In this document: positions 32,250-62,007 of the stretch, piece by piece
Numbering within the stretch: position 1 is the first letter of the stretch
Layout of the letters: the number at the start of each line of letters is the position of its first letter
Source of the DNA: Terramyces sp. JEL0728
Lineage: Eukaryota > Chytridiomycota > Chytridiomycetes > Rhizophydiales > Terramycetaceae
Length of the DNA stretch: 64,000 nt
Direction: 5' to 3'
Assembly: GCA_027603945.1 (NCBI GenBank)
Contig: JADIIU010000016.1
Coordinates: 62,001-126,000, forward strand
The notes under the pieces: model-generated
Seen by the model: the letters and a program-made list of their open reading frames with translations, nothing else
The model's database searches: none
What the model was told of the DNA's origin: nothing
Position numbers and translations under genes: made by a program

Positions 32250-34918
32250 TCAACTAAAATTACATAGACAGTCACAGTTTGCCACTGGACATTGAACATT
32301 ACTTTCAAACCATTCGAATATATGCTTTGAGTGCCCTCCATGGCTACAAGACTGGCACCAAGTAAACCACAAGTCGAACTTTGATAATGGATCTGCGTGA
32401 AAAAGAAATTACCTATCGTATTAATCTTTTTGGGATTGATCGAATCCAAGGTAGTATCATAAGGAACGCCAACAGACATAAGACAGAGTGAACATTTTGG
32501 AAATGATTTTGAACATGAAGGGCAATGAGACATTTTGGATTTGAGAGCACCTACTGGCATTGATATTGACTGAGAGTTTGACTTTTTGGCCATTCTAAAT
32601 ACTGGAGAGATCGGCTGACTGCAGAACTGACACTTGACATGGATTTGCGGTGGTACTTCTAGCTTGTTATTGTGGATCTGCAGCCGCTCAATGTCAAATT
32701 CTGCGCGGATGTGGAATAGCTCCCATTGGTCTAGCAGCTGAAGGTATCTACTATTAAGGAAAAAAACATTTCAATCCAATTTTCTAATCTGCCATCCGTT
32801 TCCAAGGGTTTTAAAGTGAGCAGCAACACTGAGCTTTGAATGTCGCCCGATTTATCAATGTACTTTTCAATCAAGTCCAGACACTGCTCAGTCCAACCTG
32901 TCAGGAGCAAACCATCGATTCTTCCTTGTTCAGTGACTTTGCTTGTCCATTTTGAGACGTAATTTTTCAACTTTGTCAGCGGTAATTACCTCTTGATCAC
33001 TTAAGAATAGCAAAGCCATAATCAAACGCTCATACATCGGCAGTGACGTTTCTGATAGCACCAAACTCCAATTGCCCTCGGAAGACATGATTCCGAATAA
33101 CGCTCTCAAATACGGATCAGCTAGCTGATATGACAAGTTTTTGCAAAGACTTTTCCAAATATTCCTGTTCGACTCGTTTGACAAATTTCCAAATCCACCA
33201 GCAAGCGCGGCTGCAACAAGCATCAGCCGTTCATCTATTGTCAAATATCAACTACTTCTGCTAGAGTTCAGACATTCTATGGTTTTGCTCAAATCGGCAT
33301 AGTATAAAAATGTTAATCCCGCTGCCTTTTCAAACTCACCATCATATTCAATTCTAAGTTATTCATAATCTACTTTCTAATTGCTTCTTGGAATTTCAAA
33401 TTGTCCACCTCTGGGTCTTTGTAATGCCAACCACACAAATATAGTGCTAAATCTCTAACTCTATTTTTGTAAATTTTCATATTAAATCCAAGCTGCATCT
33501 CAATAACTCTCTCTACGCTCTCTGGCATCGAGTTGACCATATTCAACAAACCGGTAGTTGCATAATCCTGTTCCGCCTGCAGAGTTGATGGTAGGTTTTT
33601 AAAGGCTGCATTATTATTGGATTACCATAAACATATCTCCAAGCACATTTTAGGTGGTCATCGAATTTAATGGTATTCAAGTTCGCCTCTGCCTGCGATT
33701 AAACCAAAATACCTTTAAGGAATAGCCTTGAATAGCCCTGCTGTACATTATATCGGAAATATCTTCAACTCTGCTTTTTAATTCCTTTGTTTTTGTCGAA
33801 TAATGCACAATTTTTGTATTTTCAATTACCGAAATGTTTAAATTTGGTGTCCAGGAGGAAAACCTAATTGGGGGTATTTGGAAGGTTTCTAATCGCATCT
33901 CTTTTCCAGAACACAATAACAATGGATATCCAAATGCTTTGACAGAGTTCTTTGCCACCCAAGCAATGTTATTTATATTCAAATCGGACAGTTTCACTGC
34001 AATTAGAACAAACTCACCGGATCTTGTCCGATAGACAACCGTGCTTTTAGGTTCGTGGGCATTGGACAGCATGTCAAATTGACTTTTCGGATCAGATGAC
34101 AGTTCATCTCCAATGATATTCGACTGTGCATCAAGAGTCATAGAATCCATTTCCCACAGTCGAATTATTGGTGATTCCTTTCCGAAACCGCTCAGTACAC
34201 CGCTTCTTAAGGTGGACCAGGCAATACCTCCTATTCCAAATCTAAAATCTGAAGTTATGGTAAGTATTGCTTCGCCAACTTTTCTAATATCCCATAGCTT
34301 TATAACTCCATCTTCGGCATACGAGGCAAATCGTTGTTGGTAAAACGGATCACTTGTAATGCCGTTGACTGCTTTTGTTGTAATGGTAAATATTGGACTC
34401 GCATCTGGGTTTTCTCTTAAATCATATCCTCTAAGTAGTTGTTTGCCCATCCCAGCTACCACTGTATCTGTTGTATTCAACCACGACGCAGAGGATACTC
34501 CTTGAGAACTTCCATGCTTGGATAAGAGAGAATTCACATGTTATTTTAGAATTACCATATTATTTACATCCCAAAATAACAATCCAAATTCGTTCTTTGC
34601 TTTATCCAATCCAGACAAAAGAATATTCTTCTTTCCGGGACACCAATCCACAACATTGCAATTCCTGGATGCTTTAGACCAAAGATCATTAACAAGGCTT
34701 ATATCTGTGGTCTTTACCAGTTTGATTTGTCCTGTAGCAAACCCCAGAGCTGTGAGTGTAGACTGGCTCGCAATGCAGCTAATCAAAGGGAATTCAGTGT
34801 TGATTTGAACTAGTTTCGGTTTCGGCGATAATTCATATATTCTTAAATCGGATCCTGCAACAATACATTTTTTGTCGATTACTTCAATACTTTTTTAAAT
34901 AGATTCTTACTTTAGCAT
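32250..34918 (-). CDS. SEA4: MIOS/SEA4, WD40-zinc-ribbon subunit of GATOR2/SEACAT
   Basis: Ten exons give 822 aa, close to human MIOS (875). WD repeats occupy the first 330 residues (GSDLRIYELSPKPKLVQ, VAGMGKQLLRGYDLRE, GVIKLWDIRKVGEAILTI). An alpha-solenoid follows (NIWKSLCKNLSYQLADPYLRAL, GLLLTGWTEQCLDLIEKYID). The C-terminus carries the zinc-binding CQFCSQPIS, CPSCSKSFPKCSLC and WCQSCSHGGHSKHIFEWF with a final CPVANCDCLC. GATOR2 positively regulates TORC1. Exon 1 is only 8 nt (ATGCTAAA). Introns are 19-21 nt except one of 39 nt (34517-34555). Intron 32748-32767 has two possible AG ends; the second keeps WIEIYLQLLDQW aligned with human WIENYRNLLDAW. Confidence 0.92.
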
Positions 34919-43490: not shown

Positions 43491-45438
43491 TTACTTTTTT
43501 TTATTCTTTAATGCAGTAGTAGCTTTAGTTAAAGCGATAGTAGGTAAAATGTTTCCTGCGTTAGCAAATGTTACCTTTAGAAGCTGAAGCAATTTCGGCC
43601 AAATTTTCATTCCTTGTGAGATATCTTGTAGAAATACCTTTTGGAATAAGAGACACTTTGAGCAATCCATCGAGCTGATTCTGTAGTTTTTGAACTTGCC
43701 TGTTATGCCTTTCTAAACTTTCTTGCTCTACCTCCGCATCTGACTCGTCAGACATAAAAATATCAGCTTCTTCGGCAGCCTTTTTGAACCAATCCTTGTT
43801 ATTCTGAAATTTCTTTTGTTTGTGCTTGAGTTGATCCAGTTGACGAGCAAGAGTTAAGCGTTGTTTCATGGCAGCAGTAATTGACCCATCCACCGGAAAG
43901 TCGTCAATTTGGTCTTGTTAATATGTTAATACCTCGTTTAAGCGCATGGCAGATCTTTTTGTACAAAGATTGCTCTTCCGGAGAACAGAGCATGATACTT
44001 ACTCCTTCATTATTCTGTCCTCTAGCGGTTCTGCCAGAACGATGAACATAGATTTCTGCCGATCTTGGCAGTTGATAGTGAATGACATGATCAACTAAAG
44101 GGATATCCAATCCTCTGGATGCTACGTCAGAGGCAATTAATAGGGCATTTGGAGTGTCCCTGAACCGCTCTAAATTTTTAATTCTCTGTTTTTGTTGCAT
44201 TTCAGCATGAATTCCATAGACACTTGGTAAAAGCAGTGATAAAATAGGTACCAATCGGCGAATAGCATCAATACTATTCACAAACACAATGCTTTTCCCT
44301 TGATACCTGCAGAGAATGTAATAAACCATCAGATCTTTTTCTGTTTTCAAACAATCAATCTTGGATTCCAGAACCCCTTTTGCCGTCACTTCTTTCCTTG
44401 AAATGTTGACATAAATCGGCGTCTTATCTCTGAATTCAATTTTGTCGATGAGGTTTTCCAACAGCGCATTTTCTGCTGTGCCAGTCTTTGATTTTTTCTT
44501 TTTCAAATTGCTGGATTCGACCATGGTTGCGGAAAATATAAATGTTTGTCTCTTGATGGCTCTATTTTCCTCTTGATTCAATTTAGAAATTGACAGTGCT
44601 GCAATTATTTCATCTAAATCTTTGAAGTGGCCAGATTCCAGCATTCTGTCCGCTTCGTCTAATACAAAGAATCGGATTTTCAGTAATTTTTCAATTAATT
44701 CTGGAGTCTATAATTAGCAGCAATTACCGATTGCATAATTGCCCACAATCGACCAGGAGTTGCGACAATCACATCTGGGGTTTTCGAAATTAATCTATTC
44801 TGCTTTTCAATAGACATACCGCCTACTACTGGAACCACATATTTGGCAAGATTAGCACCAGCTTTCTTCAAGTGCTCTGTTACTTGCAGGGCCAATTCCC
44901 TTGTTGGAACAAGGATCAATCCAGTCACTCCCTCAGATTGGTAATCTTTTTCTGCCAAACAATTCAAGATAGGCAACCCAAACGCCAAAGTTTTACCAGA
45001 CCCAGTTTCAGCAGCCCCGATAATATCTTTGTGGTGAATAATTGAATGCTTCATTGTCTGAGCTTGGATTTCTGTTGGTTTGCTGTACCCCAAAGTCTTC
45101 AATGCGCTTAAGATTAGTGGGTTCAGGTTAAAATCTTTCCATAACTCCAATTCCCCGTCATTCAAAGCTTCCGGTTCCACTTCTTTTGGAATATCCACTT
45201 CTGTCATCTTTTTCAATTTCTTTGGCTTTTCCTTTTCTTTCTCTTTAAACTCATCTATTGGAATAAAGCTTGAAAAGTCCAGTTCATCATCAATATCTTC
45301 CGCGCTGACAAATTTGCGTTTTTTGGGAGGGTTTGGTTCTTGCATCAGCTCTTCTTCTGTTATCTCTTCAAGTGAATAAAAACAGGCATCTGCAGCACCA
45401 AGAAATTTATTTGTCTTTACAGACTTCCATTTCCCCAT
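43491..45438 (-). CDS. MAK5: DEAD-box RNA helicase MAK5/DDX24 (60S ribosome biogenesis)
   Basis: Four exons (introns 44708-44727, 43914-43932, 43556-43574; 19-20 nt) give 629 aa. Helicase motifs in order: Q motif GYSKPTEIQ, I AAETGSGKT, Ia PTRELA, Ib TPGRL, II VLDEADRM (after the first intron), III SAT, IV IVFVNS, V ASRGLDIPLVDHVI and VI HRSGRTARG. The N-terminus KWKSVKTNKFLGAADACFYSLEEI (first part GKWKSV) and the inserted basic loop after SAT are typical of Mak5/DDX24, which acts in 27S pre-rRNA processing. Its start codon is 27 bp from the divergent TRF4 gene. Confidence 0.92.
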
Positions 45439-45465
45439 TCAAAAAAAAAATTTCAATTTTGTCAA

Positions 45466-47181
45466 ATGGATGATTTCATTAAATTTGAATTTACAGACGA
45501 TGATGAATCAGAAACTATCGAAGAGCCTGAAGTACAGAATTCATGGCTGGATAAAGATTATCTATCTGTTGATCCACTCACACCATTGCCAATACCTCCA
45601 TGGGTTGGAAAACGGAAAACATATTCTCGAGACTATGTCAAAATGTAACTGGCGGCTAATCAAGGTTGAATCAAGAGATAAGGGATTATATAGATTATGT
45701 TCGGCCAACGATTGCGGAACACCAAATGAGAATAATAGCAGTCAAGAGGTTGGAGACAGTAGTAAAGTCACTTTGGAAACAAGCAAAAGTCTGCAACTTT
45801 GGTAGTTTTGAGACACAGTTATATTTGCCATCAAGGTAAGGATGATCGACTCCAGAGAGTGCCATTTTGCGCCAGTGCTGCACTGCAATGCTCGCGCAAA
45901 ATGGCACTCTCTGTGTGAAGATTTGGATAGATTCTAACTACTTAGCGATCTAGATTGTGTGATTATTGATAGCTCTTTATATACACCCCAGTGCTTATTC
46001 GAACTCAGGAATGGGCTGGAAAAGGATGGAATAGCGACTAGAATTGATGTGATTTCAAAATCAAAAGTATTTTTAATCTAACGAGGTGCCGATTGTGAAA
46101 TATATAGACTCATTCACCAATTATAATGTAGATGTATCGTTCAATGTCGCGAATGGAGTGGAAGCTGCGAAAATTGTTAAGCAAAGTGTCGAAGATAAAA
46201 AGATTGGGAATGCCGTGCGAATATTAATGCTGCTTTTGAAGCAGTTCTTGGTGCAGCGACATTTAAATGAAGTGTTTACAGGCGGACTTGGAAGGTAGCT
46301 AGTGATTAATCTAGTTATGCACTGCTCTGTTTGATAACTTCATTCCTCAAAGTACCTTTTTACTTATCGCAGTTACATCCAAGGGTTCAGACAGGAGAAA
46401 TAGATCCAGAAGAAAATATTGGAGTATTGCTCATCGAGTTTTTTGAATTATATGGAAAGAATTTCAATTATGCAAATGTAGGTATCAAATTTCAAGGAGA
46501 TAAAAGTATATATTTTCCACGGGAAAGAGCAGCTGGATACAGCAGTTTTGGGAAGCCATCACCACTCCAAGTAATGGACCCTCAGGATGCGTGTAATTAG
46601 TTTTTAAATCAGCAAACGATGTCACAAGGGGCTCTTACAACTATCAGGTCGTTAAAAATGCATTTGGGAGAGCATACATGACACTTACATCGATGATTGG
46701 TGCAGGATATGAAAGAAAGTTCTCTAACCGCAAAATTGACAGCGAATTTTCAAATGATGAACGGTACATGATAACAATGCTGGGCAGTATTTTAACGATA
46801 AGCCGTTCAGTAATGGAACATCGCGATTATATTGAAACTAGGTACGAGCATTATTCCAAGGGAGATTGGAGCGAGTTTGGCAATCTAAATAATCTTGATG
46901 CTACCAAGCCAGCCGAAGTGCAGAAAAGAAAGCGGGATGATGATTCGTCAGGTTCTGATTATTTGGAAAATCTGCAAGGGAACGAGATGCTTCATATGGT
47001 TAAACGTGCAAGAAACAATTCCGCTAGAAAATCCGAAGACAGCCTGGAATCTGGGGAAGTGTCCGATTATCAAAAACCCGCCGGTAAATATGATGATGAA
47101 GACGAATTAGTATCGCAAAAACGAGGCAATGGTAATAGGCTGGTGATTTTAGGGAAATCAAAGAAAAAGCGATTAAAATAA
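45466..47181 (+). CDS. TRF4: Non-canonical poly(A) polymerase TRF4/Cid14 (TENT4; TRAMP complex)
   Basis: Seven exons give 501 aa. The nucleotidyltransferase core contains LNQEIRDYIDYVRPTIAEH, NFGSFETQLYLPSSDLDCVI (GS then DxD; the second and third exons join within this motif) and the third acidic residue in NVDVSFNV. The central and PAP-associated domains include GNAVRILMLLLKQFLVQR, GLGSYALLCLITSFLK, PLQVMDP and NDVTRGSYNYQVVKNAF. A basic Ser-rich tail ends the protein. TRF4 adds short oligo(A) tails to aberrant nuclear RNAs for exosome decay. Five introns are 19-21 nt; the second is 110 nt (45836-45945) and carries a perfect hairpin. The start is divergent from DDX24 by 27 bp. Confidence 0.92.
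45836..45945 (+). other. Exceptional 110-nt intron of the TRF4 gene
   Basis: GT-AG intron with canonical GTAAGG start and a CTAAC branch site 10 nt before CTTAG. Its removal joins LPS to SDLDC inside the catalytic GS...DxD motif, so the boundaries are secure. It is five times longer than nearly every other intron here because it contains a hairpin element. Unspliced, the frame stays open through the hairpin and stops at TAA near 45936. Confidence 0.85.
45853..45913 (+). ncRNA. Perfect 20-bp stem, 21-nt loop hairpin in the TRF4 intron
   Basis: Arm CAGAGAGTGCCATTTTGCGC (45853-45872) is exactly complementary to GCGCAAAATGGCACTCTCTG (45894-45913). The 21-nt loop starts with a small self-pairing CAGTG-CTG-CACTG. 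A perfect 61-nt stem-loop is unlikely by chance. It could be an RNase III substrate, a small-RNA precursor, or a tiny inverted-repeat insertion. Calling it an RNA gene is inference; the structure itself is seen directly. Confidence 0.5.
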
Positions 47182-48352: not shown

Positions 48353-48407
48353 AGATAATGCTCAGATAATGCTCAGATAGTGCTCAGATAATGCTCAGAT
48401 AATGCTC
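48353..48407. repeat. Five tandem copies of an 11-bp unit upstream of the PIH1 gene
   Basis: AGATAATGCTC repeats five times without gaps; the third copy has one change (AGATAGTGCTC). It lies between the carrier stop (48286) and the PIH1-domain start (48465), so it may be part of the latter's promoter. Confidence 0.9.
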
Positions 48408-48464
48408 AGATGTTTGCTTTCTAGTGCAGATTTTCATTATCAATAAAAAAGTACGCGTTATTTC

Positions 48465-51255: not shown

Positions 51256-54200
51256 TTATAAATCAGCTGATATGTGGATTGCGTAATCTGCAATAGCCTT
51301 TTGCCATTCATTCTGGTGTGTACGACTAAGTTAGTGCCGAGTTACGATTCAGCTCTGCATAAATATGCAAGTTTATCGGAGGGCGACAGTTCAATTACTT
51401 TGGAAAATGCCTCTTCAGACTTGGAATGTTCACCGAGGCAATTGTACAAGTACCCCAGATTGAAATATGCCATTGGGGAATTTGGATTTAGTGTAATTGC
51501 GCTTTCCAGGTCGTGTATGCTCATTTCATATTGATTGGACATTGTGTATGCTATGCCTCTATTCAACAGAGCTTCTTCGTCGTTAGGACAAAGCCTTATT
51601 GCCTATTGTTACACTATGGTTACATTGCTCAGGTATTCTATAGCCTTTTCCCAATTGCGCTGTTTCAAATAGTGATTTCCGGCGTTGTAATAAGCGAGAG
51701 CATAATCTGGATTTGCTTTGATTGCAATCTATGTTAAAGCTACATACTTTGTAGTTTTGCAGTGCAGATACGTTATCGTCTAAAGCCTCGTATATCACAC
51801 CTCTGTTTGTCAAAAATTCTGCATTTTGAGGCGAAATTTCCTATGTTTAACGGGTAGCTACAATTGCCCTCGTAATGTCTAAATATGCTGCAAAAGGATT
51901 GTTGAGGAGCGAGTTGATCAACGACCGTCCTTCAAGTGCAGCTGTGCATAAAGGATCAATCGTGTACGCCATTGTAAAGAACCTCCAGGCTTGTTTATAT
52001 TCGCCTTCAGATTGTTTCGTGTAGGCAATATTGACATATGTATCGGCATTGGTGGGGTACATGTGCAAAACCCGACAGTAGTCTCGTCTGCTTAATTCCA
52101 GCTTCTTCATATTTGAGTGTACATTTCCTCTTCCTAAAATTGCTTCCTTTGTTGAGGGTTCTAATTTCATCGATTCGGTAAACTCTGCGCAACTTTCTTC
52201 CAGCATACCTACTTTTTGGTATGCCAGCCCAAGGAGCGACCTTAATTTGGATTCGTTTGGGCTGATCTTTACAGCTTCAATGAAATCGTACAGCGCATTC
52301 TTATTGTCGGCCAATTTCCAGTACAGGATTGCCCTTTGCCTAAATGCATTCTGGTGTTAGTCTGGATTACAAGATTCTTTTCGTTCAGAAGAATTACAAT
52401 GCTGTAGTCTTTTATAGCATTTTGGAGATCGCCGAATGATTCAAATGCCATTGCTCGGTTAAAGAAGGCGTAATAGCTCCCCTATCATTAGTCGTACTTG
52501 CCTTGTCGATGTTTACGGCTTTAGTATAATCCATAATTGCAATGGCGTATTGATTAAGTTTGCATTTGCTATCCCCGCGCAAAATGTGGGCTCTAATGCT
52601 GGTTGGTTCAATTTTTAAAGCTTCGTCACAGTCAGCTATCGCTTTCTGGTATTGCCCTTTACTGTCGTAATAGGCAGCTCTTGTAAGGTAAGCATCAAAG
52701 AATCTCTGGTCGAGTTCAATGGCAAAGTTCAAATCCTGTTCGCCATCTTCGTTTCCTTGGGCAAATTTACATATTCCACGATGAAAGTATGCCTTGGAAA
52801 ACTTTGGGATCAACTCTATGCACTTTGAAAACTCTTGTTCTGCCAAAGACCAATTTTTCAAATGTTCATAGCATATACCTTTTTGGAGAGATATCTGCGG
52901 ATCATCTTTCCCTGCATCCGATACTGAAACTAGGTCATTCAACGCGCCTTTATAATCACCATATTGGATACGGGCTTTAGCGACAATGGACAACAAAGCA
53001 GGGTCATCAATATGCTTGAATCTTTTCTTTCTCTCGTCAAACTCATCAATGACTTGCTTGTATTTTCTTTGGAATGACAGAATAAGGGAACGCTGGAATT
53101 AATGTTAAATACTTGAATAAATGTTTGGGCTATTCCAGAATTTAAATCAAAGGCGGCGTGGAAATCTTTGGTTGCTTCTGGAACCTTTCCCTGGCTCAAT
53201 AGCATTCTTCCCCGATACAAAAATAGTACATAGTTACTTGGTCTGATATGAATCGCGCGGCTGTAATCTTTAATTGCTTGATAGGCGTATGATTGGACCA
53301 TTTCCATCTTGTTGCCTCTAATGGCTCTTTTTGAATTGTGCGTAGTGAGGGTTAGTAAGCTTTCTTTGTATATTTTCTCATACAGCTCCCCTCTATTTAT
53401 GTAGCCTCTCAAGTTGCATGGATCTATGTGAGAAACCAATTACCAGCAGTAATGGCCATATTTAGATTATGCTTAGCCTCGAGAAAAGTATTAGAGTTTT
53501 TCATATATAGCGCACCAAGATTCAAGAATGCTTTTGCTTTGCGTGGATTCAAATCGATAGCTTTAATTAGAGTAACGTACCAGACATGTAATCCGCAATT
53601 GCTAGATTGCCTTCTCCTAATCTTTGATACAGCTGCGCTCTATGATAAAAGGCATCTGCATTTGTTTCATAGGGGTTTAGTAGGATTGAGACGCTTAAAT
53701 CCTGAATGGCCCACTGAGGGTTTTGTTCTCTGAGCAAGCAGCCTCTGTGAAAAAAGTACCGGGAATTATCAGGGTTGATTCTAACTGCTTGCGTCAAGTC
53801 CTGGTGTAAGTATTCGTTACCTCCATTGCATCATAATAGAAAGAAAGCGCCGCGTATGATCTACCTCTAAACATGTACGCATCAGCGTTTTCAGGGTCAA
53901 TTAAAATTAATTTAGTAAATTCACTGATAGCATCAGACCATAGTTGTCTTTGGAAAGAGTACATGGCAAGATTATTTATCGCTTGATCGTTATTTGGATC
54001 AAGCATCCGAACTATTCTAAAATCTTCATTGGCAAATGTAATTTCCTACATTAGAAACCACTCACATGATCTATTTCAAACAGACATGCCCGGTTATAAT
54101 ACGCATCTGCACAATCTGATTTTAATCGAATAACTGTGGAATAGTTTACGATTGCCAGTTTGTATATTCCTAAAGTTATTGATCCATTACCAATCGCTTG

Positions 54201-61212: not shown

Positions 61213-62007
61213 ATGTCGTACCGTCAATCCCAGCGAGATACAAAAAGTCCTCCGGCCAACAAATGGGCTGCCGCTGCTCAAGCTGCTGAAAGAGGTGGTG
61301 AAACTGCTTGGCAAGAAGAAGATAAAATGAACAACATGGAATATCTCCAACAGGAAACTAAAAGAGTACAAGGCGAATCTGTAAATTCAACTCGCCGTGC
61401 TCTTCGAAGATTGAATGAAGCTCAGGCTGTCGGAGAACAAAATCTGGTCATGCTCAACAGTCAATCAGGTATATAGCTATTAACAACAGAGCAATTCAAT
61501 CGTATGGAACGCAGATTGGACGAAGCAAATGCCAATGCCAAAGCTGTAGATGCAAAAGTTGACCATTTGACCTCATTGAACAAATGGTTCTTTTTGCCAT
61601 CGTTCGGAGGAAAGAAAGCTGCCAAAAAGGAAGAAGAGCTTCGCCAGCAAAAAGAAGCTGAGCAATTCAAATCAAAATATGCAAAAGAACGTGACCAGGA
61701 ATGGAATTCTCGCAGTGAACGCCAAGCTCGTCAACAAGAGCAGTTTTCTCGTTCAAACGGGCCTCGCTCATACTACACTACCCCGGAAGGAATGGAAAGA
61801 GATGTCCACGAAGAAGAAATCGACGGCAACTTGAATCAAATATCTAGTGGTTTATCCAGACTAAAGATGATGGGAATGGCAATGGGCGATGAAATGGATT
61901 CTCAAGATAAACAATTGAGAAGATTGCAACAGTCTACTGACAATGCACAGACCAAAGTCAATAGGCTTAATAACAAGATGGAAAATTTGAAAGATAGGAA
62001 AAGATAA
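61213..62007 (+). CDS. SEC9: SEC9/SNAP25-type Qbc SNARE
   Basis: Two exons (21-nt intron, 61469-61489) give 257 aa. Two SNARE motifs are visible. The first is EYLQQETKRVQGESVNSTRRALRRL with the zero-layer Gln region near EQNLVML. The second is DGNLNQISSGLSRLKMMGMAMG, then EMDSQDKQLRRLQQSTDNAQTKVNRLNNKM. A charged linker with KKAAKKEEELRQQKEAEQ joins them, and no cysteine cluster is present, as in Sec9. Exocytic SNAREs of this type pair with an Sso syntaxin and Snc synaptobrevin at the plasma membrane. Protein is shorter than yeast Sec9 (651 aa), lacking the long N-terminal arm. Confidence 0.9.

Follow-up and report, generated by a model that had tools for sequence, protein, structure and literature searches.

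The TRF4 locus

The locus carries a gene for a TRF4-type non-canonical poly(A) polymerase (Table 1). It lies in a window of 64 kb, by which the whole stretch of DNA in question is meant and which covers positions 62001–126000 on contig 16 of a eukaryotic assembly. The deduced protein exceeds the Pfam cut-offs of PF22600, PF03828 and PF01909 (MTPAP-like_central, PAP_assoc and NTP_transf_2) and shows the nucleotidyltransferase G-S and D-x-D motifs in the form FGS...SSDLD and NVDVSF. It thus combines the nucleotidyltransferase core with the PAP-associated domain, as is typical of TRF4/Cid14-type non-canonical poly(A) polymerases. The best match in the PDB is 3nyb (“Poly(A) RNA polymerase protein 2”, 250 bits, residues 52–352), which we take to be yeast Trf4. 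Domains, catalytic motifs and this structural match together bear out an earlier interpretation of the same DNA, here called the sequence-only reading, which had named the host gene a TRF4 poly(A) polymerase. Relatives of TRF4 tag faulty RNA for destruction. Among viral contigs no TRF4 relatives were found, and a search with bacterial settings revealed no tRNA or tmRNA in the 64-kb window. On the minus strand a DEAD-box RNA helicase gene begins with its ATG at 45438, i.e. 27 bp from the TRF4 start; the spacer (45439–45465) is an A/T-run and represents a very short divergent promoter common to both genes.

Table 1. Features of the TRF4 locus, candidate longer introns and RNAi-type loci (positions in the window unless a locus is named)
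Feature	Position	Strand	Details
Gene for TRF4-type non-canonical poly(A) polymerase, from start to stop codon	45466..47181	+	6 introns, 501 aa
TRF4 intron 1	45645..45664	+	20 nt
TRF4 intron 2	45836..45945	+	110 nt, GT...AG, phase 2, splits SS/DLD of the catalytic motif
Nested sequence resembling an ordinary 20-nt intron (predicted decoy)	45836..45855	+	AG 45854–45855 = stem bases 2–3
5′ arm of perfect 20-bp stem	45853..45872	+	
Apical part, 21 nt	45873..45893	+	7/9 in-register positions pair (two G-U), 3-nt terminal loop
3′ arm of perfect 20-bp stem	45894..45913	+	
Likely branch point TTCTAAC	45932..45938	+	its A 9 nt from intron end
TRF4 intron 3	46067..46085	+	19 nt
TRF4 intron 4	46295..46314	+	20 nt
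TRF4 intron 5	46352..46372	+	21 nt
TRF4 intron 6	46593..46612	+	20 nt
Candidate 39-nt intron, WD40-like gene (by eye)	34517–34555	-	
Candidate 44-nt intron, TPR-like gene (by eye)	52454–52497	-	
Dicer-like (two) and Argonaute (three) loci	L031:5182–7578, L032:5584–8673, L003:1483–3325, L029, L030		

Intron 2 and its hairpin

In order, the TRF4 introns measure 20, 110, 19, 20, 21 and 20 nt. The model of the 110-nt intron is based on Trf4 homology and on the reading frame. It is flanked by CCA TCA AG upstream and C GAT CTA GAT downstream; once the full 110 nt are excised, the nucleotidyltransferase motif PSS-DLD is intact, and retention of the intron leads to a stop after 117 aa. Splicing of intron 2 is required for an intact TRF4 catalytic motif.

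The sequence-only reading had described within this intron a flawless 20-bp stem with a partly self-paired loop of 21 nt, and both the stem and the loop were confirmed. A second repeat search gave the same element as arms of 30 nt with 87% complementarity. The predicted helix resembles that of an shRNA since 20 bp are followed by seven paired positions out of nine and a loop of 3 nt. All four non-Watson–Crick positions of this 29-position helix are located in the apical nine, so the base of the stem is perfect and its apex looser; an even spread would produce this in 0.5% of cases by a test devised post hoc, with the sequence already known. In an equally post hoc test at least seven of the nine apical positions were paired in 1.1% of shuffled loops. 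Dicer products have about the length of the perfect basal stem of this hairpin. The 61-nt element is rich in GC (34/61), a content that is reached by 0.7% of the 61-nt windows in the 64 kb. The branch-point A lies somewhat farther from the intron end than is usual here, namely 6–7 nt (found in 370 of 449 short introns in which a TAA/TGA motif is present). If the intron is folded together with its exon flanks as naked RNA, the true 5′ splice site and the branch point are mostly predicted to be paired too, and the fold is therefore not obviously a clean separate hairpin.

Intron 2 folds at −49.2 kcal/mol (z −6.4), a value equalled by none of 200 shuffles, and the 61-nt element alone at −42.7 kcal/mol. 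From base composition only 1.5e-5 stems of at least 20 bp with loops of 3–100 nt are expected per 64 kb and 0.003 per 15 Mb, in agreement with the earlier opinion that a chance origin is very unlikely. A wider survey covered 290 kb, comprising the 64-kb window and 226 kb of further sequence (sequence flanking the window on its own contig, a 60-kb piece of contig 1 and 70 kb selected since they contain RNAi-type genes or an RNase III hit). When loops of up to 120 nt are allowed, these 290 kb contain no other perfect stem of at least 13 bp; the two that come next in length have 12 bp. An energy scan of these 290 kb in 110-nt windows (step 15, both strands) placed the hairpin lowest among 38,560 windows with −52.4, followed by −44.1 for the next independent window. 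By its predicted fold the element is a stable stem-loop within the intron of a protein-coding gene, as is expected of decay-promoting introns that are cleaved by RNase III, and its duplex has the length of at least about 20 bp that is typical of miRNA and milRNA hairpins.

Intron lengths in the genome

According to ab initio models 525 of 612 introns have a length of 19–22 nt, which confirms that introns are mostly of about 20 nt in this genome. These models are noisy: several introns above 25 nt resemble false joins, and the 110-nt intron was missed, with a 330-nt intron drawn at its place. Longer introns with support from homology measure 50 nt in the gene of the complex I 51-kDa subunit (best PDB match 7zm7) and 48 nt in an Argonaute gene (best PDB match “Protein argonaute-2”, presumably the human protein). 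Hence the claim that intron 2 is the sole long intron does not hold genome-wide, but it is still the longest homology-supported intron among those examined. Two candidates of 39 and 44 nt were recognized by eye (Table 1). The first overlaps a two-copy tandem repeat with a unit of 19 nt (34529–34565) and may owe its length to the duplication of a unit of micro-intron size; in the second an internal AG at 16 nt scores like a genuine acceptor. The interiors of the 50-, 48-, 39- and 44-nt introns fold with z values of −1.2, −1.2, +0.3 and −0.4, respectively, and none of the four falls within the best 10% of shuffles. Introns of 39–50 nt thus seem not to need a hairpin, and the data do not support a general rule by which long introns fold down.

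A possible micro-intron nested in intron 2

Taken alone, the first 20 nt of intron 2, GTAAGGATGATCGACTCCAG, resemble the introns that are standard in this genome. The CAG that completes this typical 20-nt intron is similar to an acceptor and is located at the base of the stem; it had been overlooked by the sequence-only reading. Scored against 554 short introns from the ab initio models, the decoy acceptor is located at the 30th percentile. None of these 554 scores below the real acceptor of intron 2, a last rank that arises partly by construction because the set was selected through a score cut-off of the model. Among 4,808 comparable GTA donors 7.4% have an acceptor as good at a distance of 19–24 nt, and any AG is found there in 34.5%. 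For the AG of the decoy the predicted pairing amounts to at least 99.4%, whichever of three contexts is folded, and its use as a 20-nt splice would lead to a stop after 143 aa. The stem encloses the acceptor of this ordinary-looking intron, and splicing at the distal site may thus be imposed by the hairpin. The hairpin was also considered as a separate in-frame exon of 57 nt between introns of 20 and 33 nt. This arrangement was ruled out, since its second donor (GTGTGA) ranks at the 1st percentile and 19 residues would be inserted into the catalytic motif.

RNAi and RNase III genes

A search for Dicer, Argonaute and RNase III genes, as the sequence-only reading had proposed, was successful: two Dicer-like genes and three Argonaute loci were found. 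Five RNase III domains were detected in the six-frame search, two in each of two ORFs and one in an mL44-like protein. Both Dicer-like ORFs combine paired RNase III domains with a Dicer dimerisation domain, and for the one that was compared with the PDB the nearest entries are Dicers. When searched as single ORFs, neither of them gave a PAZ match at E 0.01. Piwi domains found in the six-frame search define the three Argonaute loci. The fifth RNase III hit belongs to an mL44 homologue, so this six-frame, exon-by-exon survey, from which a split gene of the Rnt1 type could escape, revealed no additional enzyme of the Rnt1 or Drosha type. A search for RdRP gave no match but its positive control gave no signal either, so absence of this enzyme is not established. 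Of the six contigs on which the genes of this section are located, four (C11, C12, C13 and C20) have short introns of the same kind; the small seed set contained none for C65 and C93. Because introns are similarly short on these four contigs, the Dicer-like and Argonaute genes probably belong to the same organism as the TRF4 contig.

Further copies and possible targets

Copies of the element were sought in the whole assembly of 15.0 Mb (231 contigs) by BLAST with the intron region and by a scan for arm sites with up to three mismatches. The DNA copy search, which scores only its best candidates, and the arm scan revealed neither a second hairpin nor another arm site within this limit in the 15 Mb, and the reversed control gave one. 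This speaks against a dispersed repeat element, a possibility raised by the sequence-only reading, of which genome-wide BLAST found no further copies, and against small RNAs from the hairpin that act elsewhere by near-perfect pairing. The scan was directed at near-perfect pairing with at most three mismatches, as distinct from animal-like seed pairing. Inspection by eye agreed with the earlier observation that there is no clear target-site duplication at the hairpin ends. Since these ends are 17 and 32 nt away from the splice sites, the hairpin is not a strict mirtron, as had been considered as well. Rfam 15 gave no match at the gathering score in the window, nor up to E 1 in the region 45760–46010, and no exact match of the arms was found in viral contigs. 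A foreign source was considered for an exact match of 20 nt in one Pseudoalteromonas contig and rejected, since chance suffices for such a match (about 0.5 expected in 257 Gb).

Comparison with known systems

Rnt1 sites carry an AGNN tetraloop, whereas the TRF4 stem is perfect over 20 bp and has a predicted loop of 3 nt. The TRF4 hairpin as a strict Rnt1 substrate was rejected on account of this predicted apical loop and of the genes found in the six-frame survey, which are those of the Dicer-like type and the mL44 homologue only. Rnt1 destroys unspliced RNA by cleavage of the RPS22B intron, and it cuts the RPL18A intron once splicing has taken place (PMC13183374, PMC13232506). These introns of budding yeast share with TRF4 the hairpin within the intron of a protein-coding gene, and in TRF4, too, cleavage would remove unspliced RNA. 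In RPS22B the cut site lies within a structure needed for autoregulation (PMC13183374, PMC13232506). Unlike these introns, the only candidate enzymes seen for TRF4 are of the Dicer type, its host encodes a poly(A) polymerase of RNA surveillance and cleavage is hypothetical here.

A second group of related cases comprises the decay-promoting introns of fission yeast. The authors state that introns with RNase III sites might belong to this class as well. They report that two pre-mRNAs with decay-promoting introns are stabilised when cid14, which is homologous to Trf4, is lost, though they call Cid14 less prominent in decay in fission yeast (PMC4695336). In dbp2 and rps2202, which depend on Mmi1 and the exosome, slow splicing exposes an intronic signal and nuclear decay of the precursor follows (PMC4695336); this is the likeness to the scheme suggested for TRF4. 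Their signal is a protein-binding motif, whereas in TRF4 it would be a hairpin and the host gene itself would encode a component of the decay machinery.

The Arabidopsis gene DCL1 has miR838 in one of its introns, and feedback on this host has been proposed. Both this hairpin and that of TRF4 are found in an intron of an RNA-processing gene, but miR838 is from a plant and known with miRNA reads, whereas the TRF4 hairpin is known here from DNA sequence alone. miR838 is counted among the miRNAs inside protein-coding genes (PMC9023350). The milRNAs of fungi are likewise derived from short hairpins, often with minimal loops, in genomes with Dicer; fungal hairpin small RNAs are described as very rarely intronic, which counts against dicing in TRF4 (PMC9757828). 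The TRF4 hairpin differs from nearly all milRNAs described there by its intronic position and in being deduced from genomic letters only.

The RPL22A intron of budding yeast also has a stable predicted hairpin within a protein-coding gene, located, in contrast with TRF4, between branch point and acceptor. Its deletion caused no change in RNA levels, and losses of TRAMP members including trf4 left RPL22 RNAs unaltered (PMC5755908). By analogy such hairpins can be idle, and the RPL22A case is a warning against assuming function for any intronic one. Searches of the literature on TRF4 intron hairpins or TRAMP autoregulation, on fungal mirtrons and on very short introns brought no title on such a case among the matches listed.

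Possible role of intron 2

We tentatively suggest that intron 2 is a decay-promoting intron in which Dicer-type cleavage of unspliced TRF4 pre-mRNA lowers the level of TRF4; this is our first choice, although we consider it possible rather than probable. The hairpin itself is the predicted fold of one sequence, and RNase III cleavage is a candidate function of it. For this function the TRF4 transcript would have to fold in the cell as predicted and one of the Dicer-like proteins to reach the TRF4 precursor in the nucleus. Cleavage would then compete with splicing, and slowly spliced TRF4 transcripts would be lost. The cut fragments would be cleared by nuclear exonucleases, the TRF4-type cofactor of which may well be the product of this same gene, and this would constitute a feedback loop. 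As near-perfect sites elsewhere in the assembly were not found, we prefer an effect in cis to one in trans, and the putative products of 20–22 nt would be mere by-products or act only on the precursor of TRF4 itself. An RNase III site that acts in cis has to be considered because the stem is beyond chance, its host is TRF4, Dicer-like and Argonaute genes are encoded and no second copy of the hairpin was found.

The strongest rival, which we place hardly below dicing and regard as similarly doubtful, is a functionless inverted repeat. Its arms would have become identical recently by a template switch in the course of replication or by arm correction of an older quasi-palindrome, and it would be tolerated since it is spliced out. 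The lack of a second copy in the assembly is consistent with such an origin, and the GC-rich composition could mean that the element is of recent or foreign provenance. Template switching is a known source of such arms and homogenises those of short inverted repeats (PMC8604942). Two histories of this kind are both somewhat awkward in view of the post hoc tests given above: an evenly decaying palindrome would rarely confine the four imperfect positions to the apex, and arms around an arbitrary spacer would rarely pair seven or more of the nine apical positions. Moreover, the sole stem of this kind in 290 kb lies in an intron of a genome that keeps its introns near 20 nt. A small transposable or mobile element similar to a MITE would also explain why the element is short, has perfect inverted ends and is unusual in its base composition. 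With no relatives in the assembly, no clear target-site duplication by eye, no Rfam match and no exact arm match in viral contigs it appears highly improbable.

The stem could act as a mask of splice sites as well: by burying the acceptor of the nested micro-intron it would force the use of the distal acceptor and so yield intact TRF4, and a switch to the 20-nt product would follow if the stem melted or a protein were bound. We judge this unlikely. The respectable score of the decoy acceptor next to a real acceptor that all 554 short introns surpass, the small share of GTA donors with so good an acceptor nearby, the nearly complete pairing of the decoy AG in all three contexts and the stops that follow both retention and 20-nt splicing are in its favour. 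Yet a share of 7.4% is not rare and the low place of the real acceptor is partly produced by the cut-off. The 48-nt intron of the Argonaute gene has AGs at 20, 32 and 37, but homology supports the 48-nt splice, and the other longer introns are without unusual fold. In addition, the true branch point is strong, though 2–3 nt farther than usual, folding with exon flanks pairs the true splice sites too, and a stem of 20 bp exceeds what masking requires. Still less probable, in our estimate quite improbable, is a precursor of a trans-acting small RNA similar to a miRNA, i.e. a mirtron-like intron with tails. Dicer and Argonaute genes are encoded and the geometry is that of an shRNA, but no other arm site with up to three mismatches was found in the 15 Mb (against one for the reversed control), and with hairpin ends distant from the splice sites a two-tailed variant of a mirtron would need trimming.

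Dicing of the unspliced precursor is preferred over these alternatives because length and perfection of the stem exceed the need of masking, candidate enzymes are encoded, near-perfect sites in trans were not found and close precedents are known. Dicing and splice masking lead to opposite predictions for a broken stem. Both could be combined in a Dicer-dependent feedback switch joining RNAi with the TRF4–exosome system, where the stem also hides the acceptor and the alternatives are a working enzyme or destruction of the transcript, but we consider this rather unlikely. If dicing is true, the Rnt1-cut introns of yeast would have a Dicer-based counterpart here, with a surveillance poly(A) polymerase as the product of the host gene, and RNAi would be connected directly with nuclear RNA decay through a single intron. 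The case would further reveal how a spliceosome adapted to introns of 20 nt copes with one of 110 nt that begins like a good one of 20 nt.

Tandem repeats in the window

Two other repeats are present in the window. The region 48353–48411 is located directly after a mitochondrial carrier gene and consists of 5.4 copies of the 11-nt unit AGATAATGCTC with 95% matches, and at 935–1033 a unit of 30 nt occurs in 3.3 copies that are 98% alike.
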